A DNA stretch of 64,000 nt from Bradyrhizobium commune (GTDB lineage Bacteria > Pseudomonadota > Alphaproteobacteria > Rhizobiales > Xanthobacteraceae), in assembly GCF_015624505.1 (NCBI RefSeq), contig NZ_CP061379.1, positions 2,170,001-2,234,000 of the forward strand. Direction: 5' to 3'. How positions within the stretch are numbered: position 1 is the stretch's first letter; each line of letters begins with the position of its first letter. Below the pieces are notes generated by a model. That model saw only the letters and a program-made list of their open reading frames with translations. It searched no databases and was not told the origin of the DNA. Shown piece after piece: positions 9,692-62,620 of the stretch. The position numbers and the translations under genes are program-made.

Positions 9692-9821
9692 CGTCTCGTC
9701 CCCCGTTCATGCAGAAGCACTGGCGACGCGTGCCTCGGCCACGTGCGCGCCGGACCAAACGGCAGCGACATGGCCTCGCATCGCGTGAGCCCAACATCGG
9801 GCGGCGGCCGACCCGGTCATG

Positions 9822-9835
9822 TTGATCTATGTCAA
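9822..9835. promoter_or_regulatory. FNR/FixK-type box C
   Basis: TTGATCTATGTCAA keeps the core TTGA-N6-TCAA. It is 130 bases upstream of the leftward aspT pair and the better placed of two boxes for that operon. Confidence 0.75.
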
Positions 9836-9940
9836 CCATATGCGGGATGTCTCACGACACCGATGTCATCGCCGCGTCATTCGCCGCGTTGCAGCGCGGC
9901 GACGGGCCCGCGCTCTCGTCGATCCGTCGCGGTCGAAGCG

Positions 9941-9954
9941 TTGAGATAGATCAA
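9941..9954. promoter_or_regulatory. FNR/FixK-type box D
   Basis: TTGAGATAGATCAA has the core TTGA-N6-TCAA and lies 99 bases upstream of asdA, nearly the same distance as box A from the SulP gene. Confidence 0.75.
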
Positions 9955-10053
9955 AGATCGACGTCGATCGCCCACCATGCTGCTGGAGATTGCGCAGGCG
10001 AGGAGCCTCCTCGGCTTCCGTTTCATCAGGCTGCATAGCCCTGGGAGTCTCAC

Positions 10054-11673
10054 ATGGCAGACATCTTAACTCTGAAGAAGTTCGAGGCGCTGAGCCCGTT
10101 CGAGATCAAGGACGAACTGATCAATTTGGCCAAGGCCTCCTCGAAACGGACGCAGAGTGCGTTTCTGAACGCCGGCCGCGGCAATCCGAACTGGGTCGCG
10201 ACCACGCCGCGCGAAGGCTTTTTCCTGTTGGGACAGTTTGCCATCAGCGAAAGCAAGCGGGTGATGGACCATCCCGCCGGGATCGGCGGCATGGCCGAGG
10301 CGAAGGGCATCGCCCGACGGTTCGAGGCCTGGCTTGCCAAGCACGCCGACATGCCGGGCGCGAGCTTCCTGTCGGCGATGCTGCCGTTCGCGGTCAAGAA
10401 GTTCGGTTTCGACCCCGATGCTTTCGTTCACGAGCTCGTCGATTCGATTATCGGCGACAATTATCCCGTGCCGGACCGCATGCTGGTGCACAACGAGAAG
10501 ATCGTGCACGAATATCTGATGTGGGCTGTTTGCGGCGAGCCGCGGCCGGCCGGCAAGTTCGACATCTACGCAGTCGAGGGCGGGACAGCGGCGATGTGCT
10601 ATCTCTTCAAGTCACTGAAGGCCAATCGCCTGCTGCAGCCCGGTGACACGATTGCGCTCGGAACGCCGATCTTCACGCCCTACATCGAGATGACGCACCT
10701 GGAGGACTATGACCTCAAGGTTGTTCAGATCAGGGCTCCGCAGGAAAACAAGTTCCAGTTCACCGACGAGGAAATCAAGAAACTGGAGGATCCGAAGGTC
10801 AAGGCTTTCTTCGTCGTCAATCCGTCCAATCCTCCGGGGATGGGCTTGAGCAAGGAAACGATCTCCAAGCTGGCGAACCTGGTCAAGACCAAGCGGCCCG
10901 ACCTGATGATCCTGACCGATGACGTCTACGGCACCTTCGTGCACGGTTTCCGCTCGCTGCTGGGCGAGCTGCCGCACAACACGATCGGCGTCTATTCCTA
11001 TTCCAAATATTTTGGTTGCACCGGATGGCGGCTCGGCGCCATCGCCATTCACGAGGACAACATCTTTGACAAGATGATCGCCAAGCTGCCCGATGCCGCC
11101 GTGAAGGCGCTCGACAAGCGTTACGGCCCTCTGACGCTGGAACCCCGCAAGCTGAAGCTGATCGACCGCATCGTCGCCGACAGCCGGGACGTCGCGCTCA
11201 ATCACACCGCGGGCCTGTCGCTGCCGCAGCAGGTGATGATGAGCCTGTTCTCCCTGTCCGAGATGCTGGACGACAAGAAGGCTTATCAGGCTGCCTGCAT
11301 GGAGATCGTCAACAAGCGGCTATGGTCGCTGCTCGACGGCCTCGGGCTCGCCGACAAGCTGAGCCCGAATCCCAGTTACGACGCCTATTATGCCTTGCTC
11401 GATTTCGAGTTCTGGGCTCGGAAGAACATCGGCGACGAGGCCGTCGAATATCTGAAGAAAAGCGTCCATCCGCTCGATCTCGCATTTCGTCTGGCCGAAG
11501 CCCACGGCATCGTGCTGCTGAACGGCGGTGGCTTTGACGCTCCTGAATGGTCGCTGCGCGTGTCGCTGGCCAATCTTCCCGACGACGTTTACGACGACAT
11601 CGGTCGAGGCGTCCGGTCGATCGCGCGCGGCTATCGGGATGCATACGAGGCGTCCAAGGCCGGCCCGAAGTAA
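10054..11673 (+). CDS. asdA: Aspartate 4-decarboxylase
   Basis: The 539-residue protein matches the large aspartate 4-decarboxylase (AsdA/AspD) group of fold type I PLP enzymes, which turn L-aspartate into L-alanine and CO2. The PLP lysine is in YSYSKYFGCTGWRLG, about residue 318, and NPSNPPG is the expected cofactor-pocket motif. Length agrees with characterised AsdA (about 530). Such enzymes are cytoplasmic and dodecameric. Coupled to an Asp/Ala antiporter they yield proton-motive force and consume protons. Two AspT-type antiporters are divergently encoded immediately upstream. FixK-type box D precedes the gene. Confidence 0.92.
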   Translation: MADILTLKKFEALSPFEIKDELINLAKASSKRTQSAFLNAGRGNPNWVATTPREGFFLLGQFAISESKRVMDHPAGIGGMAEAKGIARRFEAWLAKHADMPGASFLSAMLPFAVKKFGFDPDAFVHELVDSIIGDNYPVPDRMLVHNEKIVHEYLMWAVCGEPRPAGKFDIYAVEGGTAAMCYLFKSLKANRLLQPGDTIALGTPIFTPYIEMTHLEDYDLKVVQIRAPQENKFQFTDEEIKKLEDPKVKAFFVVNPSNPPGMGLSKETISKLANLVKTKRPDLMILTDDVYGTFVHGFRSLLGELPHNTIGVYSYSKYFGCTGWRLGAIAIHEDNIFDKMIAKLPDAAVKALDKRYGPLTLEPRKLKLIDRIVADSRDVALNHTAGLSLPQQVMMSLFSLSEMLDDKKAYQAACMEIVNKRLWSLLDGLGLADKLSPNPSYDAYYALLDFEFWARKNIGDEAVEYLKKSVHPLDLAFRLAEAHGIVLLNGGGFDAPEWSLRVSLANLPDDVYDDIGRGVRSIARGYRDAYEASKAGPK

Positions 11674-44926: not shown

Positions 44927-46654
44927 ATGACCAGGAAGCAATGGTTATTGTCCGGCTTCGTCGCCTTCACGTGCCTTGCCTCGACCGCCGCGAGTGCCGG
45001 CCCAATCGAGAATTATGCACCTGTCACCGCGCAACGCCTGGAAAATCCGGAACCAGGCAATTGGATGCTCTATCGTCGTACCTATGACGGGCAGGGCTAT
45101 AGTCCGCTCGACCAGATCAACATCTCGAACGTCAAGGATCTCACGCCGGTCTGGACCTTTGCGACCGGCGTGGTCGAAGGCCACGAGGCGCCGCCGATCG
45201 TCAACAATGGCGTGATGTTCGTGGCGACGCCGATGGGACAGGTGATCGCGCTGAACGCGAAGACCGGTGACGAATATTGGCGCTACAAGCGGCAGCTTCC
45301 CGACGATCTGTTCCAGCTGCATCCGACCAGCCGCGGTGTCGGCCTGTGGGACGACAAGCTCTATCTCGCCACCACCGACGACCACGTCGTCGCACTCGAC
45401 GCCAAGACCGGCAAGGTGGTCTGGGATACGAAGGTCCAGGATTACAAGAAGGGTCAGTACATGACTCTGATGCCGCTGATCGTCGACGGCAAGGTCATCG
45501 TCGGCGGCTCCGGCGGCGAGCTCGGCGTGCGCGGTTACGTCGCCGCCTACGATGCCAAGGACGGCAAGGAGCTGTGGCGCACCTTCACCATTCCCGGCGA
45601 AGGCGAGCCGGGCCACGACACCTGGCAGGGCGACGACTGGAAAACCGGCGGCGGCTCGGCCTGGATGACCGGCAATTACGACAAGGACACCAAGACGATC
45701 TATTGGGGCGTCGGCAATGCTGCGCCGTGGCCCGGCGAGACGCATCCCGGCGACAATCTCTACACCTCGTCGGTGCTCGCACTCGACCCGAGCAGCGGCA
45801 AGATCAAGACCTATCACCAGTACCACCAGAATGATTCCTGGGACTGGGACGAGGTCGACGCGCCGATGCTGGTCGACCTGCAACGCGACGGCCGCAGCAT
45901 CAAGAGCCTGATCCATCCCGGCCGCGACGCGATCTTCTGGGTGCTCGAGCGTACGCCGACCAAGATCAACTACGTCGCCGGCTGGCCGTTCGTCTCAACC
46001 GACGTCTGGAAGGGTATCGATGCCGAAAGCGGACGGCCGATCGTCGATCCCGCGCACAAGCCGGTCATCGGCAAGCGCGTCGAGTTCTGCCCATCACTGT
46101 GGGGCGGCAAGGACTGGCCGTCGGCGGCCTACAGCCAGCGGACCGGTCTCGTCTACGTGCCCGCCAACGAGAATTTCTGCGGCGGGTTCACCGGCGAGAA
46201 GGTGGCGCTGAAGCCGGGCGAGCTCTGGCTCGGCACCAAACCGGAGGATATCGGCCTGAAGGCGAAGCCGGGCGCGGATCATTTCGGCGAGCTTCAGGCC
46301 TGGGATCCCGTCACGGGCAAGAAGGTGTGGCAGCACGACTTCCCGAAATCGCAGCTGTTCGGTTCGGTGACGGCGACCGCGGGCGATCTCATCTTCGCCG
46401 GCGGCACCAACGACCGCAACTTCCGCGCTTTCAATGCCAGGACCGGCGATCTGCTGTGGGAGCAGAAGACCAATTCCGGCATCATGGGCATGCCGGTATC
46501 TTATGAGATCGACGGCACGCAGTACGTCGCGATCCAGTCGGGCTGGGGCGTGGACGCGCAGCGCATCCAGGATGCGCTCGCGACCAACAATATCGGCATC
46601 GAGTCCAATGTGCCGCAAGGCGGCGTGATCTGGGTGTTTGCGCTGAAGAAATAA
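44927..46654 (+). CDS. PQQ-dependent alcohol dehydrogenase, Rieske-linked, lacking the vicinal Cys pair
   Basis: The 575-residue periplasmic quinoprotein has a signal peptide (~1-24) and eight-bladed propeller repeats (AxDAKTGK motifs). Equivalents of the metal ligands are Glu198, Asn264 and Asp306, with an extra Asp308 in SWDWDEV, the mark of lanthanide-dependent enzymes. At the place of the usual adjacent Cys-Cys disulfide it reads LHPTSRG, so that ring near PQQ is absent. There is no haem domain. ATG at 44927 follows AGGGGA. A strong terminator follows the gene. Substrate is unknown, probably an alcohol or aldehyde. Confidence 0.88.
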
Positions 46655-50420: not shown

Positions 50421-50984
50421 TCAGGCCGCCTTGGCCTTCGCCACGTGGGTGGCGATCGCGTCCATCAGCGCCGGCGACAGACAGTCATAGGGCTCGAGCC
50501 CGATTTCCTTCAGCCGCGAACGGATGCCGGCCATCTGCTCCGGCTTGACGCCGGACTCGATCACCGAGGAGACGAAGGCGGCGAATTGCGGCGCCTGCGA
50601 GCCCTGCTCCTGGAACAGCTCCGGATGGATGAAATCGAGCCCATAGAACGGATGGTTCTTGTTCTCGATACGGCCGAACATGTGCGTGCCGCAGGCCTTG
50701 CAGGCGTGGCGCTGGATCACTGCGGAGGCGTCGACGATCTGAAGCTTGTCGCCGTTCTCGAGCACGGTGACGTTTTGGCGCGGCACCACCGCGACGACGG
50801 AGAAGGTCGCGCCCTGCGGCTTCCAGCACTTGGTGCAGCCGCAGGCGTGGTTGTGTGCCACGTCGCCCTTGACGCCGACCTTGACCGGGTGGTCCTTGCA
50901 TTTGCAGGCGAGCGTGCCGCCGGCAAAGTGGCCGGTGCCTTGTTTGACGCCGTTGTCGATCGAGGGGTGGAGTGCAACAGTCAT
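50421..50984 (-). CDS. gfa: Glutathione-dependent formaldehyde-activating enzyme
   Basis: The 187-residue protein speeds condensation of formaldehyde with glutathione to S-(hydroxymethyl)glutathione. Zn-binding Cys motifs are [17 protein letters not shown] and [11 protein letters not shown]. It follows frmA by about 30 bases, in the same operon as xoxF-xoxG, and so handles formaldehyde made by methanol oxidation. Confidence 0.93.
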
Positions 50985-51014: not shown

Positions 51015-52124
<1,110 letters not shown>

Positions 52125-52185: not shown

Positions 52186-52704
52186 TCACTTCTTGCCCAT
52201 GCACGAGTCTTCATTCTTGGTATAGGCGTCGTTCTTGTCCTCATGCTTGCCCGGACGGGCTCGGCCCCATGCGTCGTTGGAGCGGGAACGCAGATAGACG
52301 TAGAGATCGTCCATGTAGCAGGCGACGTTCGGGTTATCGCCGAAGGCCGGCATCACGTTCTCCGCGGCCGTCGAGATGTTCTTGCGGCCGGAGGCGACGA
52401 CGCCCAAAAAGTCGGCATAGCTCATCGTCTTGAGCGAATCCTTCAGCGCCGGCGCATAGGTCGAGCCCATTCCATCGGGGCCGTGGCAGACATGGCAGTC
52501 CGAGTGATAGCGGCGGTATCCCGAATAGGTGTACCAGTCGACGGATTCGCCGTTGATCTTGTAGGTCGGATTTCCCTCCTTATCGAGCCACTCGCCAGTT
52601 TCGTTCTGCTTGACGGCAGTGGGATCGCCCGAGCCGTCCGCGACAGCAATTCCTCCGGACACAACGAAGATCATCGCAGCAATGACAAAGCAGATTTTAC
52701 GCAA
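52186..52704 (-). CDS. xoxG: Cytochrome c of the XoxF methanol dehydrogenase, XoxG
   Basis: The 172-residue periplasmic monohaem cytochrome has a signal peptide (~1-22), haem motif CHVCH, and a probable axial Met in ENVMPAFGDNP. It ends in a Lys/Asp-rich tail with a Cys. Encoded directly after xoxF, it is the natural electron acceptor. A 12-bp stem-loop separates the two genes. Confidence 0.9.
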   Translation of the reverse strand: MRKICFVIAAMIFVVSGGIAVADGSGDPTAVKQNETGEWLDKEGNPTYKINGESVDWYTYSGYRRYHSDCHVCHGPDGMGSTYAPALKDSLKTMSYADFLGVVASGRKNISTAAENVMPAFGDNPNVACYMDDLYVYLRSRSNDAWGRARPGKHEDKNDAYTKNEDSCMGKK

Positions 52705-52785: not shown

Positions 52786-54591
52786 CTAGTTGGTGGGCAA
52801 CGAGAACACGGTCAGCGTGCCGCCGAGTGCCGTGTAGTTGCTGAGTGCAGCATAGCCGCCGACTGCGCCGAGACCGGCGGTCGGATCGGTCAGGCCTGCG
52901 GCGAGACCAATGCCGGCCCAGCCGCCAACGCCGGAGAGCACGGCAACATACTGCTTGCCGCCGTTCTCATAGGTGGTGACGTTGCCGATGATGCCGGAGG
53001 GAGTCTTGAACTTGTAGAGCTCCTTGCCGGTCTTGGCGTCGACCGCCTTCAGATAGCCTTCCAGCGTGCCGTAGAACACTACGCCGCCGCCGGTTGCGAG
53101 CGCACCCGACCAGACCGAGAACTGCTCCTTGTTCGACCAGACGATCTTGCCGGTCTTGCCGTCCCAGGCGATGAAGTTACCCATGTTGGTATCGCCCTGC
53201 GGCGGATACATCGAGAGCGTCGCGCCCACATAGGGCTGGCCCGCGGTGTAGCTCACCTTGAACGGCTCGTAGTCCATGCAGACGTGGTTGGTCGGAACAT
53301 AGAACAGCTGCGTGTCCGGCGAGTACGCCGCCGGCTGCTCGTCCTTGGTGCCGAGCGCGGCCGGGCAGATACCCTTCACGTTGTGGTCCTCGCCGGCCTT
53401 GTCGGTCGAAGCTGCGTCGAGCACCTTCGGACGGCCATAGGTCGCAGAGTTCTTGTCCATGTCGACGCCGGAGGTCCAGTTCACCTTCGGATCGTACTTC
53501 TCGGCGACCAGAAGCTCGCCGGTGGTGCGATCGAGCGTATAGCCGAGGCCGTTACGATCGAAATGCGTCAGCAGCTTGCGCGCCTGGCCGTTGATCGACT
53601 GGTCCGACAGGATCATCTCGTTGACGCCGTCATAATCCCATTCGTCATGGGGCGTCATCTGATAGACCCATTTGGCGACGCCGGTGTCCGGATTGCGCGC
53701 CCAGATCGTCATCGACCATTTGTTGTCGCCGGGACGCTGCTTCGGATTCCAGGTCGAGGGGTTGCCCGATCCGTAATAGACGAGGTTCAGCTCGGGATCG
53801 TAGGAGATCCAGCCCCATGTGGCGCCGCCGCCGATCTTCCACTGATCGCCCTGCCAGGTCTTCAGGCTGGAATCTTTGCCGATCGGCTTCCCGAGTGCGG
53901 TGGTCTTGTCGTCGACCAGGATCTGGTCATCCGGGCCTTCCGAAAAGCCGCGCCAGGCGAGCTTGCCGGTCTTGATGTCGTAGGCGCTCATGTGGGCCTG
54001 AACGCCGAACTCACCGCCGGAGATGCCGATCAGCACCTTGTCCTTGATCACCATCGGCGCCGACGTGCCGGTCTCGCCCTTGCCCGGATCGCCGTTCTTC
54101 GCGGTCCATGCCACCTCACCGGTCTTGGCGTCGAGCGCGACCAGGGTCGTGTCGGCCTGATGCAGGAAGATCTTGCCGTCGCCAAATGCCAGGCCACGAT
54201 TCACCGTATCGCAGCACATCACCGGAATGACGTTCGGATCCTGCTTCGGCTCGTACTTCCAGACGATCTTGTTCTCCTGCGAAAGGTCAATGGCGTAGAC
54301 CTTGTTCGGGAACGGCGTATGGACGTACATCATGTTGCCGATCACCAGCGGGCCGCCTTCGTGGCCGCGCAGCACGCCGGTCGAGAAGGTCCAGGCGACC
54401 TGGAGCTTGCCGACATTTTGTGCGTTGATCTGGTTCAGCTTGGAATAGCGGCTATTGGCATAGTCGCCGGTCGGCATCACCCAGTCTTTCGGGTTCTGCG
54501 ACATCTTGTTCAGCTCGTCATTGGCTGAAGCGCTGCCGACGGCGAGAGCCGCCGCGGAGCCAAGAAAGGTCGCCAGTAGCACCTTGCGCAT
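52786..54591 (-). CDS. xoxF: Lanthanide-dependent methanol dehydrogenase XoxF
   Basis: The 601-residue periplasmic quinoprotein oxidises methanol, possibly to formate. It has a signal peptide (~1-23), vicinal Cys126-Cys127, and metal ligands Glu194, Asn277 and catalytic Asp319, plus Asp321 in WDYDGVNEM. The DYD pattern marks lanthanide rather than calcium use. It is very likely of the XoxF5 clade. ATG at 54591 is selected because GGAGGA ends six bases upstream; the ATG at 54597 abuts that sequence. It heads the xoxF-xoxG-frmA-gfa operon, divergent from an AraC regulator. Confidence 0.95.
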
Positions 54592-55103
54592 AGTCATTCC
54601 TCCGTTGGTCTCGTTTATTGTTTCCGAAGCATTGCTCAATCACCGGGCTTCTCGTCCGGCGTCTGCTCGTGCAGGGCGGTCACGATTGCGACCAGAAACG
54701 ATGCGGTGGTGTTTCCTCCTCCTGATGAGAGCCACAGGTCCGCGTGCAGGAGCGGCCCGTTCTTTTTTGTTCCTGCCGCAATTCCTAACGGGTTCGCCAA
54801 CGGGAAACTTGCCCAAGAGAGAAGGCGCTTTGCTCGATAGCGCACGGAGGCGAAGTTTTTGATTTTGCAGTAGCGAATTCAGCGGCTTCCGCATCGCGCG
54901 GCGCGGCGCACCACGCTCAGGTTCCCCTTGACGGCGCTGCAACTAAGGCGGAGGATTAACGTCAAGGGTGGCAATGCAGCGATGGCGCGCGCAGCAAAAG
55001 ACCACCCAAATTTGAGGTAAACGTCACGCAATCACGGCCGAGGCTCCAGCAGCGCTGGTCGCGATTCGCATCGAATCCCCGGGTAACACCAGTGGCTGGA
55101 TTA
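54592..55103. other. Divergent promoter region, xoxF / AraC regulator
   Basis: This 512-base gap holds no convincing gene; the small frames in it lack good starts. It should hold the xoxF promoter, a leader of unknown length and the AraC-family gene promoter. I could not identify a specific operator by eye. Confidence 0.55.
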
Positions 55104-56072
55104 ATGTCCGACACAATTCACACGCTCTCGACGACGGGACTGACGCCGAGGCGGCAGATCCAGAGCTGGGTCGACGGGCTGACGAGCCTGTGCGGCCATT
55201 TCGACGTCGATCCGCTGGAGGCGTCCTCGCTCGAAGGACGCATCGATTACACCACCGTGTCGCGGTTGAAGCTCTGCCAGATCGAGGTGAGTCAGCATCG
55301 CATCGCGCACACGCTGGCGCGTGCCAAGGCCAATGAACACCCGTACATCAAGATTCACTTCCAGACTTATGGCGTGTCCTATTTCGAGCAGGAAGGCCGC
55401 CACATCGAACTGAACCCCGGCGACATCATCGCCTACGACGTCTCCTGCCCGCACTCGATCATCAGCCCTGCCTTCACCCGCCACGACGTGGTGATCGTGC
55501 CGAAGGCGCTGCTGCGCGACCGCGGTTTCCCGTCGCAACGGATGCCGGCTTGCAAATTGTCGGCGCGCACAGGCACGGGACGCATTGCTCATGACTTCGT
55601 CCACGCCACGTTCGACGAGGCGGCAAAACTGTCGGCCAACAGCGCGGTCGGCGTCGCCGATTCGCTGATCGACCTGCTGCTGCTGCCGCTGCGCGAAGCC
55701 GATACGATGTTCGATCGCGTCGGGCCCGAGGCGATGTATGTGCGTGCGCAGTTCTTCATCCGCGAGCATCTGCGCGATCCGGATCTGTGCATCGATCAGA
55801 TCTCTGCCGAGCTCGGCTGCTCCAAGCGCTATCTGCACATGCTGTTCTCGGAGCGCGGCACCACGGTGAGCGACTACATCTGGCAGGCGCGCTTGCAGAA
55901 TTGCCGCCAGGAGCTCGAGGCCCACGCCGGCAAGACCATCACCGACGTCGCGTTCTCCTGGGGCTTCTCCAGCTCATCGCATTTCAGCCGCGTGTTCCGG
56001 AAATATTTCGGCGTGGTGCCGTCCTCGATCCACAAGGCACAGCAGGGCACTGTCGTCGCGGACGAGAACTAG
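55104..56072 (+). CDS. AraC-family transcriptional regulator
   Basis: The 322-residue regulator has an N-terminal AraC-binding-like domain (~20-190) with a cupin-like segment (HIELNPGDIIAYDVSCPHSI) and a C-terminal double helix-turn-helix (~210-310; DQISAELGCSKRYLHMLFSE and GFSSSSHFSRVFRKYFG). Divergent placement against xoxF makes it the best candidate regulator of the xox operon. ATG at 55104 is chosen; GTG at 55092 is possible. Confidence 0.88.
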   Translation: MSDTIHTLSTTGLTPRRQIQSWVDGLTSLCGHFDVDPLEASSLEGRIDYTTVSRLKLCQIEVSQHRIAHTLARAKANEHPYIKIHFQTYGVSYFEQEGRHIELNPGDIIAYDVSCPHSIISPAFTRHDVVIVPKALLRDRGFPSQRMPACKLSARTGTGRIAHDFVHATFDEAAKLSANSAVGVADSLIDLLLLPLREADTMFDRVGPEAMYVRAQFFIREHLRDPDLCIDQISAELGCSKRYLHMLFSERGTTVSDYIWQARLQNCRQELEAHAGKTITDVAFSWGFSSSSHFSRVFRKYFGVVPSSIHKAQQGTVVADEN

Positions 56073-57745: not shown

Positions 57746-58672
57746 TCACCGTTGCATGATCTGCTTCCACACGTCGCCCAGGATCGCAGGCTCGCGCGGC
57801 GGCAGATAAGTCAGGCCGGCCTGCTTGCCGTATTCGGCGATCTTGCCTTCCGCAGCGAGCTCCCCGAGCGCCTTGTTGACGGCCTCGATCAGCGCAGGGT
57901 CATTCGCAAGCCCGACATAACCGCGATTGGCCCCGATCGGATAATAATAGCCGGAGGCGGTGATGGCGGTGTCGGGATGTGCCGTGCGATGGGCGTCGAA
58001 GCGGGCGAGATCGATCAGCGTTGCGTCATACTCGCCGCGGTCGAGCGCGCCGAGCAGATCGTCGCGGCCGGGGACGAGATGGGTGATGCTGTCGATCAGC
58101 CGCCCCTTGTCGAAGTTCATCAAGACGGCGTCACCAAGCGAACCGCTTTCGATCGCGAGCTGCAGGCCGGCGAGATCGCCGATGTCGCCGATCTTGCGGT
58201 CGCGCGCCTTCGGCCCGAGCACGATCGTCATCGGCGAATAGACGTAAGGCGCGCTCGGTGCGAGCACGCCGAGCGCGACGCGGCGCCGCCGGTCGTCGCG
58301 CGTTGCGCCTGCGAAATCCGGCAGGCGCGCCGTCTTCATGCCGGGTGCGACGAGGGAATCCGTCGTCAGTGCATAGCCGCCGACGAACGAGCAGCGACGA
58401 TCGGAGAGCAGCGCGTTGGCCTCGAGCTGCGGGCTCGAGTCCTCGTCCAGCTTGCTCTCGAACCACTGGATTTTCAGCGGCCGTCCCAGCCGGTCTGCGA
58501 TCGCCTGTGCGAGCAGCACATCGAAGCCCGCGTCGGGCTTGCCGCGGTGATGCACCGACAGCGGCGGCCGGTCCTCGTCGAGACAGATGCTCAACGGATC
58601 GGCCGCGCGCGCGGTCGTTGCCAGCGAGGTCAGCATTGCAGCGAGACCCAGCGCCGCCAGCCGGCACCTCAT
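57746..58672 (-). CDS. xoxJ: XoxJ-like periplasmic binding protein of quinoprotein systems
   Basis: The 308-residue protein has a signal peptide (to TARAAD, ~24) and a type-3 extracellular solute-binding fold (LSICLDEDRPPLSV start, AGFDVLLAQAIADRLGR). It matches the binding proteins tied to methanol/quinoprotein dehydrogenases (MxaJ/XoxJ), thought to help the dehydrogenase mature or load its cofactor rather than feed a transporter. Its ATG overlaps the cytochrome stop (ATGA). No ABC permease is adjacent. Confidence 0.87.
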   Translation of the reverse strand: MRCRLAALGLAAMLTSLATTARAADPLSICLDEDRPPLSVHHRGKPDAGFDVLLAQAIADRLGRPLKIQWFESKLDEDSSPQLEANALLSDRRCSFVGGYALTTDSLVAPGMKTARLPDFAGATRDDRRRRVALGVLAPSAPYVYSPMTIVLGPKARDRKIGDIGDLAGLQLAIESGSLGDAVLMNFDKGRLIDSITHLVPGRDDLLGALDRGEYDATLIDLARFDAHRTAHPDTAITASGYYYPIGANRGYVGLANDPALIEAVNKALGELAAEGKIAEYGKQAGLTYLPPREPAILGDVWKQIMQR

Positions 58673-59016
58673 GGCTTCCTCCGGCTCGAGATGAAGGCCC
58701 AGAGATCGCCGATCTCGTCGTCGTTGAGGACGTCGCCCCAGGGCGGCATCTTGTTGTTCTTGCCGTTCTTCACCGTGGTGACGAAGCGCGTCTTGTCGTC
58801 GGGAAAGGCGCGCAAATCCGGCGTGATGGTCCCCGAATTGACCATGTTGGGGCCGTGGCAGTGCGAACACTTCTGGGCGTAGGTCATTTTGCCGTGGTCG
58901 ATCGGGGAATTGGCGTTCTGCTCCTGCGCGATGCCGGCGGCCGCAAAGACCGCGACAGCCATCACCGCGACGGCGGCGAACGCCGCCGCCGTCCTGAAGG
59001 TTGATGTCCTGGGCAC
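58669..59016 (-). CDS. Small periplasmic cytochrome c
   Basis: The 115-residue monohaem cytochrome has an N-terminal hydrophobic signal (AAAFAAVAVMAVAVFAAAGI), haem motif CSHCH, and probable axial Met in NNKMPPWGD. It lies between the PQQ dehydrogenase and the XoxJ-like gene and is the likely electron acceptor of that enzyme. The start is GTG at 59016, 13 bases after the upstream stop; the frame extends further but into the dehydrogenase gene. Confidence 0.88.
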   Translation of the reverse strand: MPRTSTFRTAAAFAAVAVMAVAVFAAAGIAQEQNANSPIDHGKMTYAQKCSHCHGPNMVNSGTITPDLRAFPDDKTRFVTTVKNGKNNKMPPWGDVLNDDEIGDLWAFISSRRKP

Positions 59017-59029
59017 GCGGTACCTGCGA

Positions 59030-60697
59030 TCACTGCTTGACGGCAAACACCCACAGCGAACCGCCCGCGGGCACGTTCGCAAGCCGTTCGTCACCCGAGA
59101 AGATCGAGTAGACGCCGCCGTAACCGCTGGTGACGGCGATATATTGCACGCCGTCCTGCTGCCAGGTGACAGGCTGTCCCTCGATGCCCGAGCCGGTCTG
59201 GAACTGCCAGAGCTTCTTGCCGGTGTCGGCGTCGAAGGCCTCGAACTCGCCGGTCAGCGCGCCGGTGAAGACGACGCCGCCCGCTGTCGACAGCACGCCG
59301 GAGAAGCGCGGAATGTCGCTCGGCGCTTCCCATTTCGCCTTGCCTGTCAGCGGATCGATGGCCTTGAGATGACCACGTGGTCCGTCGGTCCACTCCCACA
59401 GATCGGTCAAGTCCATGCCGAGGTACCATTCGCCGGCCTTGTAGGTCGCCGGTTCCGTCTTGTAGTGTCCGCCGAACGCAAGGGTGTTGGCGTAGGCCAG
59501 CCCCGTCTGCGGATTGAACGACATCGGTTCCCAGTTCTTCCCGCCCAGCAACGATGGGAAGACGACCACCTTCTTGCCATCACGGGCATCCTTGCTGACG
59601 TCGGTCTCGATCGGACGACCCGACTTCATGTCGATGCCGGTGGCCCAGTTCACCTTCACGTACGGATTGGCCGCGAGCAGCTTGCCGTCGGTGCGATCGA
59701 GCACGTAGAAGAAGCCGTTGCGGTTGGCGTCCATCAGCACCTTGGTCGGCTTGCCCTCGACATTCATGTCGGCGAGGACCATCTCGGCCACCGAGTCATA
59801 GTCGAACGGATTGTTCGGCGAGAACTGGTAATGCCACTTGATCTTGCCGGTCTTGGGATCCATCGCCAGCACGGAGCAGGTGTAGAGATTGTCGCCGGGA
59901 CGCACCGCCGAATTGAATGGGCCGGGATTGCCGATGCCCCAATAGACCGTGTTCAGCTCGGGATCGTAGGAACCCGTGATCCAGGTCGAGCCGCCGCCGA
60001 GCTTCCAGGTGTCGCCCTTCCAGGTGTCGCCGCCGGGCTCGTCCGGCGAGGGGATCGAATGCGTGCGCCAGAGATGCTTGCCCGTTGCCGGATCCCAGCC
60101 GTCGATGAAGCCGCGGGTGCCGAACTCGGCGCCGGAAATGCCGGTGATGACGACGCCGTCGGCGACCAGCGGGGCCACCGTCATCGAGTAGCCTTCCTTG
60201 ATGTCGGCCACCTTCTGCCGCCACAGCTCCTTGCCGTCCTTGGCGTCGAGCGCAATCACGTTGGCGTCGAGCGTGGTGCGGAAGAGCTTGCCATCGTAGA
60301 GCGCGGCGCCGCGATTGATGATGCCGCAGCAGACGATGCGCGGCGTCTCGGCCGGATATTCGATCTTGCTCTTCCAGATCTGCTTGCCGGTCTTGGCGTC
60401 GACCGCCATGGTCGCGTTGTGCGAGGTCACGTAGATCACACCCTGGTACACCAGCGGCTGCGATTCCTCGCTGCGATCGTCGTTGAAGGAGTAGTTCCAG
60501 ACCGGGACGAGGTTCTTGATGGTGTCCTTGTTGATCTGGTTCAGCGTTGAGAAGCGCTGGAGATTGTAGCCCATCCCGTAGTTGAGAACGTTCGACGTGT
60601 CGGTCGCACCCTTGACCAGTTGCTCGGTGGTCTGAGCGTTTGCATACGTCGATGCAACCAGCATGACGAGGCTCGCGGCCATCGCAAAGCGTTTCAT
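59030..60697 (-). CDS. Lanthanide-type PQQ alcohol dehydrogenase, second Xox-like system
   Basis: The 555-residue periplasmic quinoprotein has a signal peptide (~1-21), vicinal Cys123-Cys124, and metal ligands Glu191, Asn257, Asp299 and Asp301 (FDYDSVAE). The extra Asp makes it a lanthanide-type enzyme. It is shorter than XoxF and differs around the active site (SPNNPFDYD against TPHDEWDYD), so the substrate may not be methanol. ATG at 60697 starts a clean signal peptide. The frame stays open upstream to 62164, but that part crosses the divergent genes and is not coding. Operon: dehydrogenase, cytochrome c, XoxJ. Confidence 0.9.
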   Translation of the reverse strand: MKRFAMAASLVMLVASTYANAQTTEQLVKGATDTSNVLNYGMGYNLQRFSTLNQINKDTIKNLVPVWNYSFNDDRSEESQPLVYQGVIYVTSHNATMAVDAKTGKQIWKSKIEYPAETPRIVCCGIINRGAALYDGKLFRTTLDANVIALDAKDGKELWRQKVADIKEGYSMTVAPLVADGVVITGISGAEFGTRGFIDGWDPATGKHLWRTHSIPSPDEPGGDTWKGDTWKLGGGSTWITGSYDPELNTVYWGIGNPGPFNSAVRPGDNLYTCSVLAMDPKTGKIKWHYQFSPNNPFDYDSVAEMVLADMNVEGKPTKVLMDANRNGFFYVLDRTDGKLLAANPYVKVNWATGIDMKSGRPIETDVSKDARDGKKVVVFPSLLGGKNWEPMSFNPQTGLAYANTLAFGGHYKTEPATYKAGEWYLGMDLTDLWEWTDGPRGHLKAIDPLTGKAKWEAPSDIPRFSGVLSTAGGVVFTGALTGEFEAFDADTGKKLWQFQTGSGIEGQPVTWQQDGVQYIAVTSGYGGVYSIFSGDERLANVPAGGSLWVFAVKQ

Positions 60698-61045
60698 CCG
60701 TTCCTCCCAATATGCGCGCCTTTTGACGCTGCGATTGCAACACTCGGCCCGAAAGCAAAACCCGTCAATACGAAAGTCGAAAGCGCGTTGCCGATATGTT
60801 GGACGCCAGATGCCAGGCTTCGTTCGGTAATTCCCGAGAGAATTTGCGCGTCTTGCGCGAATGCGCTGCACCAATTTCCACGGCGCGAAGATTGGTCCGG
60901 GACGCTGTGAGAGCAGAACGCCCGTGCGGCCGAGTTCCCGTTGTTGAGCGGTGATCCGCGACTCCACGCTTGAACCGCGACGCGATTGTGGACTTATGTT
61001 CTCTCTTCCCCGTTCGAATCGGGGCTCTTGCTCAGGGAGGTTTTG
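60698..61045. other. Divergent promoter region, PQQ dehydrogenase / lanmodulin
   Basis: This 348-base gap has no supported gene. It must contain promoters for the leftward dehydrogenase operon and the rightward lanM-pqqA-barrel genes. It is less GC-rich than its flanks. No specific operator was recognised. Confidence 0.6.
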
Positions 61046-61438
61046 ATGATATCGCGCCGTTCCATTGCGCTGTCGTTGCCGATTGCCTTGCTCGCCGGTC
61101 CGGCTTGGTCTGCCTCCGGCAGTGCCGTCAAGATGTTCGATACCGACAATGACGGCACGCTCGATCTCGTCGAGGTGAAGAAGGCGGCGGCCGCGCTGTT
61201 CGCCAAGCTCGATCCGGACCATGACGGCACGCTCGACGTGCGCGAGTTGCGCGGACGGTTGACGGCGAAGGAACTCGCGGCCGCCGATCCCGATCACGAC
61301 GGAACGCTCACGCTCGAGGAATATCTCGCGGTGGTGGAGCAGCGTTTCAACGCGGCGAATCCCGACAAGGACGGAACGCTCGACGCGAAGGAGTTGAATT
61401 CGCGTGCGGGCCGTGCGTTGCTGCGTTTGTTGCGATGA
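61046..61438 (+). CDS. lanM: Lanmodulin homologue, periplasmic lanthanide-binding EF-hand protein
   Basis: The 130-residue protein has a signal peptide (~1-23, with SRR near its start) and four EF-hand loops at 32-43 (DTDNDGTLDLVE), 56-67 (DPDHDGTLDVRE), 81-92 (DPDHDGTLTLEE) and 105-116 (NPDKDGTLDAKE). Loop spacing of 24, 25 and 24, Pro at loop position 2 in three loops, and Asn opening EF4 match Methylobacterium lanmodulin, which binds lanthanides with picomolar affinity. Differences: Thr replaces Pro in EF1, and Thr replaces Asp at position 9 of EF3. ATG at 61046 follows GGAGG. It is divergent from a lanthanide-type dehydrogenase. Confidence 0.93.
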   Translation: MISRRSIALSLPIALLAGPAWSASGSAVKMFDTDNDGTLDLVEVKKAAAALFAKLDPDHDGTLDVRELRGRLTAKELAAADPDHDGTLTLEEYLAVVEQRFNAANPDKDGTLDAKELNSRAGRALLRLLR

Positions 61439-61609
61439 GAAACACATCGTTTGACTGGGAGCGAAGGCGATTTGCCCGAGAGGGAACTGCGCGCGTACAA
61501 CACGCTCGATCGCTGCGTCAGACGCTTGATTCCAGGCTTGCACTGCGTGTGACGCAGCCCTAGGTTTTGCCCGGCGCGATGTCGCGCTCAATACCTTGGG
61601 AGACCCCGA
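61439..61609. other. Spacer between lanmodulin and pqqA
   Basis: These 171 bases lack a gene. pqqA could share the lanM transcript or use a promoter here; GGGAG lies seven bases before the pqqA ATG. Confidence 0.5.
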
Positions 61610-61690
61610 ATGGCTTGGAAAGCTCCGAAGATCGTGGAAGTGCCGGTCGGCATGGAAATCAACATGTACGCCTGCGCTTCGCGCAAGTAA
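61610..61690 (+). CDS. pqqA: PQQ precursor peptide PqqA
   Basis: This 26-residue peptide (MAWKAPKIVEVPVGMEINMY, then ACASRK) has the PqqA family form: an N-terminal MxWxxPxIxEVxxGMEI core and Glu16 and Tyr20 in EINMY, the two residues cross-linked by PqqE to build pyrroloquinoline quinone. GGGAG lies just upstream. The gene is not followed by pqqB-E; an outer-membrane protein gene comes next. It may supply precursor to a pqqBCDE set elsewhere, or be a second copy. Confidence 0.93.
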   Translation: MAWKAPKIVEVPVGMEINMYACASRK

Positions 61691-61750
61691 GACTGACGAC
61701 CTGCCGCGGCTTCGGTGGCGAATGCCATCGAAGCCGTGGTAGTGTTCGTG

Positions 61751-62620
61751 ATGCGCATTGGTGCTCACACGATTTGGACGGCGGCCGCGTGCACGCTTGT
61801 GCTCGCACCGGTATGCGTCAGCGCCGAAGAGGGTTTCGATACTGAGCACATCTTCGGCTTCATGATCGGCAGCGACGTCGGCAATCCCGGCGAGCGCGAA
61901 TTCCAGAGCCAGACGACGGGACGTTTCGGCAAGGGTGGCGGCACCTATCGTGCCATAGGCCAGGAGGTTGAGATCGAAATCGTGCCGCTGCCGAATTTTC
62001 GCATCGAGGTCGGCGGCGCCACCACGTTGCACGACATCACCGGCGTCCCTGATATCGACGATCGCCGCCAGCTCAACTTTCAGGGCGCCTCGCTCGATCT
62101 GCGTTATCGCCTGCTCGACCGGGAGCGCGCCCCGTTCGGCATGACCATCGCCGCCGAGTCTCATGGCGATCGCATCGACGAGATCAGCGGCGCCAAGGGG
62201 CGGATGTATGGCACCGACTTCACGCTCGCTTTCGACCGCGAACTCGCCCCGAACCTCGTCATCGGCGCCCTCAACCTGGTCTATCAGCCTGAATGGGCGC
62301 GCTTCGAGGCGACGGGGCTGTCGGAGAAGAGCTCAACCATCGGCGTCGCCTTCGCCGGCATGGTGCGCCTGCGCCCCGATGTCCTGCTCGGCAGTGAAGT
62401 GCGCTACTTCCGCCAGTATGAAGGCATCGGTCTCGGCGAGCTTTCGGGGCAGGCCCTGTTCGTCGGCCCGACAGCGTATTTCCAGCTCTCCGAGAGCTCG
62501 CGGCTGACGCTGAGCTGGAGCATGCAGGCCTGGGGGCGTCCAGCCGGAACAGCCGCCAATCTCGACCTCGTCAATTTCGAACGGCATCAGGCACGGCTGG
62601 TGTTCGGCGTGAACTTCTAG
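61751..62620 (+). CDS. Outer-membrane beta-barrel protein of unknown function
   Basis: The 289-residue protein has a signal peptide (to VCVSAEE, ~26), alternating-hydrophobicity strands throughout, and a C-terminus ending in Phe (LVFGVNF), the signal for barrel assembly. It is not a TonB-dependent receptor. No named family is recognised. It follows pqqA by 60 bases on the same strand, which hints at a role in metal, quinone or substrate passage across the outer membrane. ATG at 61751 gives the best signal peptide; its ribosome-binding site is weak. Confidence 0.75.
   Translation: MRIGAHTIWTAAACTLVLAPVCVSAEEGFDTEHIFGFMIGSDVGNPGEREFQSQTTGRFGKGGGTYRAIGQEVEIEIVPLPNFRIEVGGATTLHDITGVPDIDDRRQLNFQGASLDLRYRLLDRERAPFGMTIAAESHGDRIDEISGAKGRMYGTDFTLAFDRELAPNLVIGALNLVYQPEWARFEATGLSEKSSTIGVAFAGMVRLRPDVLLGSEVRYFRQYEGIGLGELSGQALFVGPTAYFQLSESSRLTLSWSMQAWGRPAGTAANLDLVNFERHQARLVFGVNF

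Follow-up and report, generated by a model that had tools for sequence, protein, structure and literature searches.

A lanmodulin gene flanked by an orphan pqqA and the gene for a PedH-like dehydrogenase in Bradyrhizobium commune

Genes at the lanM locus

The window, that is, the whole stretch of 64,000 nucleotides analyzed here, comes from Bradyrhizobium commune (contig NZ_CP061379.1, positions 2,170,001 to 2,234,000 of the forward strand). It encodes a lanmodulin precursor, LanM, whose gene lies between a divergent gene for a quinoprotein alcohol dehydrogenase and a copy of pqqA, the gene for the PQQ precursor peptide. These genes, their neighbors, and a conserved intergenic element are given in table 1.

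Table 1. Features of the lanM region, with positions in the window.
Feature	Position	Strand	Basis
lanM, lanmodulin precursor, 130 aa	61046..61438	+	NF053806 181.1 bits (cut-off 135); PDB 6mi5/8fns; single copy in genome
Putative Sec signal peptide, residues 1-22 MISRRSIALSLPIALLAGPAWS	61046..61111	+	by eye
EF1 loop DTDNDGTLDLVE, residues 32-43, Thr at position 2	61139..61174	+	sequence
EF2 loop DPDHDGTLDVRE, residues 56-67	61211..61246	+	sequence
EF3 loop DPDHDGTLTLEE, residues 81-92, Thr at position 9 (codon 61310-61312)	61286..61321	+	sequence
EF4 loop NPDKDGTLDAKE, residues 105-116, Asn at position 1 as in Mex-LanM EF4	61358..61393	+	sequence
pqqA, orphan second copy of PQQ precursor peptide gene	61610..61690	+	TIGR02107 46.3 bits (cut-off 20)
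Conserved inverted element TTGACG...GTTGCA...CGTCAA upstream of PedH-like gene, candidate operator	60723..60768	-	intergenic conservation
PedH-like quinoprotein alcohol dehydrogenase, D-Y-D lanthanide signature, divergent from lanM	59030..60697	-	TIGR03075 708 bits; best PDB 6zcv/6zcw
c-type cytochrome, probable electron acceptor, start uncertain	58669..59094	-	PF13442, PF00034; best NCBIfam PedF cytochrome c550 42.6 bits, under cut-off 122
Periplasmic solute-binding protein, XoxJ/MxaJ-like position	57746..58672	-	PF00497; no NCBIfam match over cut-off
AraC-family regulator, divergent from xoxF	55092..56072	+	PF12833, PF14525; FeaR model 180.4, cut-off 199
XoxF5-type methanol dehydrogenase, D-Y-D; first possible start, likelier near 54597	52786..54639	-	PDB 6oc5 XoxF 1065.5 bits; TIGR03075 775.7 bits
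c-type cytochrome, XoxG position	52186..52704	-	PF13442
Zinc alcohol dehydrogenase, likely glutathione-dependent formaldehyde dehydrogenase	51015..52124	-	PF00107, PF08240
Gfa-like glutathione-dependent formaldehyde-activating enzyme	50421..50984	-	PF04828
Third quinoprotein alcohol dehydrogenase, D-W-D (SWDWDEVD)	44927..46654	+	TIGR03075 639 bits; PDB 6zcv first

The lanM frame runs for 130 residues to a stop codon, with a good ribosome-binding sequence, AGGGAGG, upstream of its ATG. By eye, the N-terminus of the protein resembles a Sec signal that ends near residue 22, and residues 1-20 have a mean pLDDT of 49 in the predicted structure. The four EF loops start 24, 25, and 24 residues apart, which leaves 12, 13, and 12 residues between loops, and position 2 is Pro in EF2, EF3, and EF4 and Thr in EF1. 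The original prediction had described four loops with this spacing, Pro at position 2 in three of them, Thr in its place in EF1, and Thr instead of Asp at position 9 of EF3, and each of these readings was recovered from the translated frame. The dehydrogenase reading frame continues antisense through lanM and pqqA as a minus-strand open frame of 1044 residues (59030-62164), behind which naive gene calling masks lanM. A simple GC3 gene caller indeed miscalled both lanM and the divergent dehydrogenase, and coordinates were taken from homology instead.

The divergent dehydrogenase starts at 60697. Its best PDB matches are to PedH, the lanthanide ethanol dehydrogenase of Pseudomonas putida (6zcv/6zcw, 461.7 and 454.7 bits), followed by the calcium enzyme ExaA (1flg, 435.5 bits) and a quinohaemoprotein alcohol dehydrogenase (1kv9, 414.5 bits), whereas XoxF entries score 330-371 bits. 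Given that the XoxF entries lie ~90 bits or more under the best match, we rejected XoxF as the identity of this neighbor. The motif PFDYDS aligns with WDFDG of PedH and WDFSG of ExaA, with Asp where ExaA has Ser; the enzyme thus shares D-x-D with PedH but is shorter, at 555 residues. That lanM is divergent from a DYD lanthanide-type PQQ dehydrogenase, as originally predicted, agrees with the TIGR03075 match, the PDB search, and the retention of D-Y-D in all 74 orthologs of this neighbor, and the enzyme is PedH-like and not XoxF. The xoxF5 gene is found ~4.4 kb beyond it. Three quinoprotein dehydrogenases in the genome exceed the TIGR03075 cut-off, all with D-x-D and all within 17 kb of lanM, and a weaker fourth match, in two pieces, occurs at 3.02 Mb. 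Lanthanide-dependent growth of Bradyrhizobium on methanol via XoxF has been described (PMC12628762, available part), in a paper whose main text covers XoxF methanol growth and contains no lanmodulin terms. Past the window's end, NCBIfam cut-offs are exceeded by a SoxYZ-like carrier, a quinoprotein-relay metallohydrolase, a MoxJ-like protein, three parts of a PQQ-associated ABC system, and an S-formylglutathione hydrolase; a response regulator and two parts of another ABC transporter in that region exceed none.

The genome contains two pqqA genes, whose peptides differ at a few positions. The other copy, at 1.746 Mb and ~485 kb from lanM, is followed by pqqB, pqqC, and pqqE (1.743-1.746 Mb), and a profile search of the genome returned no second pqqB, pqqC, or pqqE over the cut-offs. 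We therefore rejected the idea that the lanM-side pqqA heads a PQQ operon, as the sole pqqB, pqqC, and pqqE over their cut-offs sit beside the other copy. The adjacency of pqqA and lanM, also part of the original prediction, holds by the TIGR02107 match, but the gene is an orphan second copy.

Family assignment and predicted fold of LanM

LanM matches the NCBIfam equivalog NF053806, "lanmodulin LanM," at 9e-54, exceeding its curated cut-off by 46 bits, and a profile search of the 7.6-Mb genome returned lanM as the sole match to this model. The top two entries in a PDB search are those of Mex-LanM from Methylorubrum extorquens AM1 (6mi5, 8e-33; 8fns, 1e-32), and the Ancylobacter protein 9pi2 and Hans-LanM from Hansschlegelia quercus (8dq2) follow at ~1e-21. 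The hits after these four lanmodulins, a designed protein (5e-6) and centrin (2e-5), are weaker by 15 orders of magnitude. The alignment with known lanmodulins that had been proposed as a check places Mex-LanM closest (60 of 103 aligned residues identical), ahead of the Ancylobacter protein (46/102) and Hans-LanM (43/101). In the available part of a survey of the family (PMC10232371), lanmodulins are described as proteins of <200 residues with four EF hands, 12-13 residues between adjacent hands, and Pro at position 2 of at least one hand; LanM combines four loops in 130 residues with separations of 12, 13, and 12 residues and Pro in EF2, EF3, and EF4.

AlphaFold2, supplied with 47 LanM sequences from the window and the fetched loci, produced a metal-free model that is led by its alignment and has a pLDDT of 85.2, with values of at least 90 for 92 of 130 residues and confidence past the signal peptide. 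Foldseek searches with this model gave E <0.001 for four LanM entries only, the best being 8fns of Mex-LanM (6e-11, target TM 0.96, 0.7 Å), and the best calmodulin reached E 1e-2 with a TMq of 0.24. The predicted structure is a three-helix bundle with peripheral metal sites, in line with its superposition on 8fns. The equivalog model, the solved structures, and this predicted fold together back the original prediction of a lanmodulin homolog.

Could LanM instead be an ordinary calcium-binding EF-hand protein, of the calmodulin or calerythrin kind, that merely resembles lanmodulin? Thr at position 9 or position 2 is not unusual in calcium loops, and Pfam returns generic EF-hand models only, with one match under its cut-off. 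Loops 24 residues apart are also present in six of six outgroup EF-hand proteins (four from the same genus and two from the same family), and the 24-residue spacing alone is without diagnostic value. Phylogenetic separation is likewise unclean. In a tree of 120 rows, the nearest row to LanM is a same-genus LanM that is 95% identical, but 56 of 117 inner branches are open, and the unresolved group that contains the Bradyrhizobium rows also takes in the Hans group and the long-branched outgroups of ordinary EF-hand proteins; the tree is therefore no independent test of orthology. Against a calcium-binding protein stand the margin over the equivalog cut-off, Pro at position 2 in three loops together with 12-13 residue linkers across all four, and the confinement of fold matches below E 0.001 to LanM entries, which make this alternative very improbable. 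The equivalog score, the predicted fold, and the spacing of the four loops thus led us to reject an ordinary calmodulin-like protein, with no help from the tree.

Within the family, LanM resembles Mex-LanM (6mi5, 8fns) in having four loops of the same spacing, Asn at position 1 of EF4, and no counterpart of the Hans dimer arginine, and it differs in having Thr and not Pro at position 2 of EF1 and Thr and not Asp at position 9 of EF3. Hans-LanM (8dq2, 8fnr) and Ancylobacter 9pi2 share the EF spacing, and Hans-LanM the overall fold as well; in both, unlike in LanM, EF1-3 begin with Asn and carry Glu at position 9, and Arg occupies the site of Hans Arg100. In the alignment, the equivalents of Hans Arg100 and Asp93 are Glu and Glu in LanM and Glu and Lys in Mex-LanM, and the Hans dimer network (Arg100 with Glu9 and Asp11 of EF3) reads Glu, Thr, and Glu in LanM. 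A Hans-type dimer was rejected on these missing residues. LanM would instead behave as a Mex-type monomer, because Glu replaces Arg100 and Thr replaces Glu at EF3 position 9.

Variation and conservation in Bradyrhizobium

A scan of named genomes confirmed at least 171 relatives, of which the best 80, all with Bradyrhizobium titles, were kept as the 80 loci described below; loci from L082 on partly duplicate genomes and were left out of this set. The EF loop pattern missed 2 of 110 loci (L033 and L054). Among the best 80 of at least 171 loci, 79 encode Thr and 1 encodes Ser at EF3 position 9; at EF1 position 2, 65 encode Thr and 14 encode Pro, and the remaining locus (L054) has a shortened EF1. 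Pro at position 2 is found in EF3 and EF4 of all 80 and in EF2 of 75. Outside the genus, EF3 position 9 is commonly Asp, and Thr also occurs there in L088, L100, L110, and L124. Because they are common to the sampled Bradyrhizobium loci, the Thr changes are, to judge from these sequences, lineage marks and not particular to one strain. Of 244 genomes drawn from the family, 41 had a LanM match over the cut-off. A hand count of the same-genus genomes in that draw gave such a match in 20 of 29 and none in 9 of 29, so LanM cannot be essential throughout the genus.

According to the original prediction, the two Thr changes could alter affinity or the choice between light and heavy lanthanides relative to Methylobacterium LanM. 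Thr at EF3 position 9 would remove a carboxylate, which in Mex-LanM we take to be second-shell, and may tune that metal site. In Hans-LanM, position 9 is a metal ligand (PMC10232371, available part). The presence of Thr or Ser at this position in all of the best 80 of at least 171 loci raises the possibility that the shared changes confer a light/heavy selectivity materially unlike that of Mex-LanM. However, position 9 is altered in only one loop of four, and since the same Thr occurs outside the genus it may be neutral. The EF1 change, in turn, is shared with Methylobacterium aquaticum 22A, compared here by its published description, whose lanmodulin has Thr at position 2 of its first loop and Lys at that of its second and thus differs from LanM in EF2 (PMC9260416, available part). 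The same source reports La-induced expression of this protein and a conformational change of the recombinant form on La binding. We consider a materially different selectivity unlikely.

Several further variants were observed. The Bradyrhizobium LanM at L054:8001-8390 (plus strand) has an EF1 that is seemingly two residues shorter and starts Asp-Pro, which may reflect a genuinely lost metal site or a sequencing artifact. Two genus genomes encode a second, diverged LanM ~18-19 kb from the first (L112:10999-11394 and L113:10500-10895, both minus strand); that of L112 has Tyr instead of Asp at EF1 position 1. In G170, the second LanM is encoded between response-regulator and sensor-kinase genes, with a quinohaemoprotein dehydrogenase bearing DYT (by eye) nearby. 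LanM relatives with more altered loops are found in other genera at L123 (lanM 9752-10153), where a PqqB-like start is seen by eye ~5 kb before lanM, and at L124:4722-5108 (minus strand), where Pro is absent from position 2 in all loops.

The surroundings of lanM are also conserved. All of the best 80 of at least 171 loci have pqqA beside lanM, at a distance of 174 to 1062 bases between aligned ends, and in 79 the two genes share a strand. A PedH-like ortholog (at least 70% identity) is divergent from lanM in 74 of the 80. Of the other 6, which lack the PedH-like gene, one lies at the end of a contig, and 3 have xoxF5 adjoining lanM instead. Loci without the PedH-like gene include L042, L072, L076, and L078, the last three being those in which xoxF5 and an AraC regulator adjoin lanM. 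A best match to XoxF5 of at least 70% identity is present inside the fetched flanks in 44 of the best 80 loci, a flank-limited figure that is not a linkage count. PqqE was not found in these 80 loci (flanks of up to 8 kb, E 1e-20). A fixed pattern detected pqqA in the same-genus loci L114, L129, and L130, and detected none in same-genus L128, beside the second LanM copies of L112 and L113, or in 13 loci from 13 other genera; a diverged pqqA may escape this pattern. The pairing of lanM with pqqA suggests joint expression of a metal carrier and a cofactor precursor. A scan of 60690-61800 gave nothing above shuffles: it detected no sigma-70-like promoter and a single terminator-like site, compared with 1.7 in shuffled sequence, and none between lanM and pqqA.

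After pqqA, the window encodes a protein of ~290 residues with a signal-like start (61748-62620, plus strand) that is found in 62 of the best 80 loci and matches no Pfam or NCBIfam family. Gene spacing indicates a block of ~3.5-4 kb after pqqA in 15 of the best 80 loci. In L010 (9654-13872, minus strand), the one locus in which this block was searched by HMM, it contains a gene for an AcrB-type RND transporter (PF00873), a candidate lanthanide or metal efflux pump, next to a putative adaptor recognized by eye and without a Pfam match.

The inverted element on the PedH side is conserved among those intergenic regions, 60 of 75, that are shorter than 450 bases, with that of the window included. 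The pattern TTGACG...GTTGCA...CGTCAA has two exact matches in the genome, at 54928-54965 on the xoxF5 side and at 60723-60768, and none for a reversed control, but was itself drawn from those two sites; the half element TTGACG...GTTGCA has 15 genome matches versus 7 for its control. Across 117 genomes of the genus, the full pattern occurs in 24 and the control in 2. By their printed sequences, 19 of the 28 genus matches belong to the lanM-side type and 3 to the xox-side type, while 6 are unrelated, and both types are found together in only one of the 117 genomes, the window's own. Among 244 genomes of the family, the pattern occurs in 11 and the control in 3, and 5 of the 13 matches look unrelated. 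Each region is thus conserved in its own line, and an operator common to xoxF5 and the lanM side is no more than a possibility. One could further envisage that the Bradyrhizobium proteins with Thr or Ser at EF3 position 9 form a distinct LanM class, a dedicated metallochaperone of the PedH-like dehydrogenase, with lanM and the orphan pqqA as a conserved "metal plus cofactor" cassette that shares a promoter element with xoxF5; we regard this as distinctly unlikely.

A proposed role in lanthanide handling

We propose, with a probability of roughly 0.85, that LanM is a small four-EF-hand lanmodulin that is predicted to be exported, likely binds light lanthanides tightly, and likely acts as a buffer for, or donor to, the neighboring quinoprotein dehydrogenases. 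Its family, four loops, predicted fold, single copy, and conserved place come from sequence and computation; export, binding, selectivity, and delivery we infer. The properties expected of a lanmodulin include picomolar Ln3+ affinity, a ~10^8-fold preference over Ca2+, and a disorder-to-order change. Metal-free Mex-LanM is disordered (PMC11845868, available part), and by analogy LanM would be disordered without metal and fold on capture of Ln3+ in the periplasm. The four loops of the disordered apoprotein would capture Ln3+ taken into that compartment, whereupon LanM would fold round the metal into a three-helix bundle and keep it accessible as PQQ-Ln is assembled in the PedH-like enzyme, in XoxF5, and in the third dehydrogenase. 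These enzymes likewise require Ln and PQQ in the periplasm, and the divergent gene pair with its downstream orphan pqqA would allow metal carrier, enzyme, and cofactor precursor to be made together.

An obligatory donor role is difficult to reconcile with M. aquaticum 22A, in which deletion of lanM is harmless for growth on methanol and LanM is unneeded for XoxF metalation, as stated in the available part of PMC9260416. This dispensability is the strongest evidence against delivery and makes sequestration or regulation a serious rival, in which the lanmodulin mainly sequesters excess lanthanide for protection or regulation and does not feed the neighboring dehydrogenases. The lanM gene of 22A affects mxcQE regulation and behavior under La exposure (PMC9260416, available part), and the block after pqqA in 15 of the best 80 loci, with the RND pump of L010, could point to metal export. 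The conserved partners of lanM are, however, enzyme and cofactor genes, and the extra block is absent from the window. We view predominant sequestration as possible but rather less probable than supply of the dehydrogenases.

The genomic setting also differs among known systems. In M. extorquens, lanM belongs to the lut transport cluster (PMC7391723, available part), whereas in the window it lies between the dehydrogenase gene and orphan pqqA; the neighbors of lanM in 22A are not lanthanide-transport genes, according to the available part of PMC9260416. Lanmodulin diversity has been surveyed over 696 sequences, with Bradyrhizobium unnamed in the available main text (PMC10232371), and 15 plasmid-borne Bradyrhizobium LanM sequences have been reported (PMC12482762, available part). 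Bradyrhizobium lanmodulin is thus already published, and LanM joins a known family. In the open-licence literature, supplements excluded, we found no description of the lanM/PedH-like/pqqA arrangement or of the shared EF3 Thr.

Lanmodulins serve as scaffolds for rare-earth separation, and their cellular job is unsettled. The locus described here offers a clean natural comparison, namely a plant-associated genus in which lanM is kept next to an orphan pqqA and the gene for a lanthanide-type dehydrogenase, in a strain where each quinoprotein alcohol dehydrogenase over the family cut-off bears the lanthanide signature. The shared change at EF3 position 9 allows the contribution of that residue to be probed in a naturally occurring protein. 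The interest of the locus lies in its conserved design together with this natural position 9 variant.
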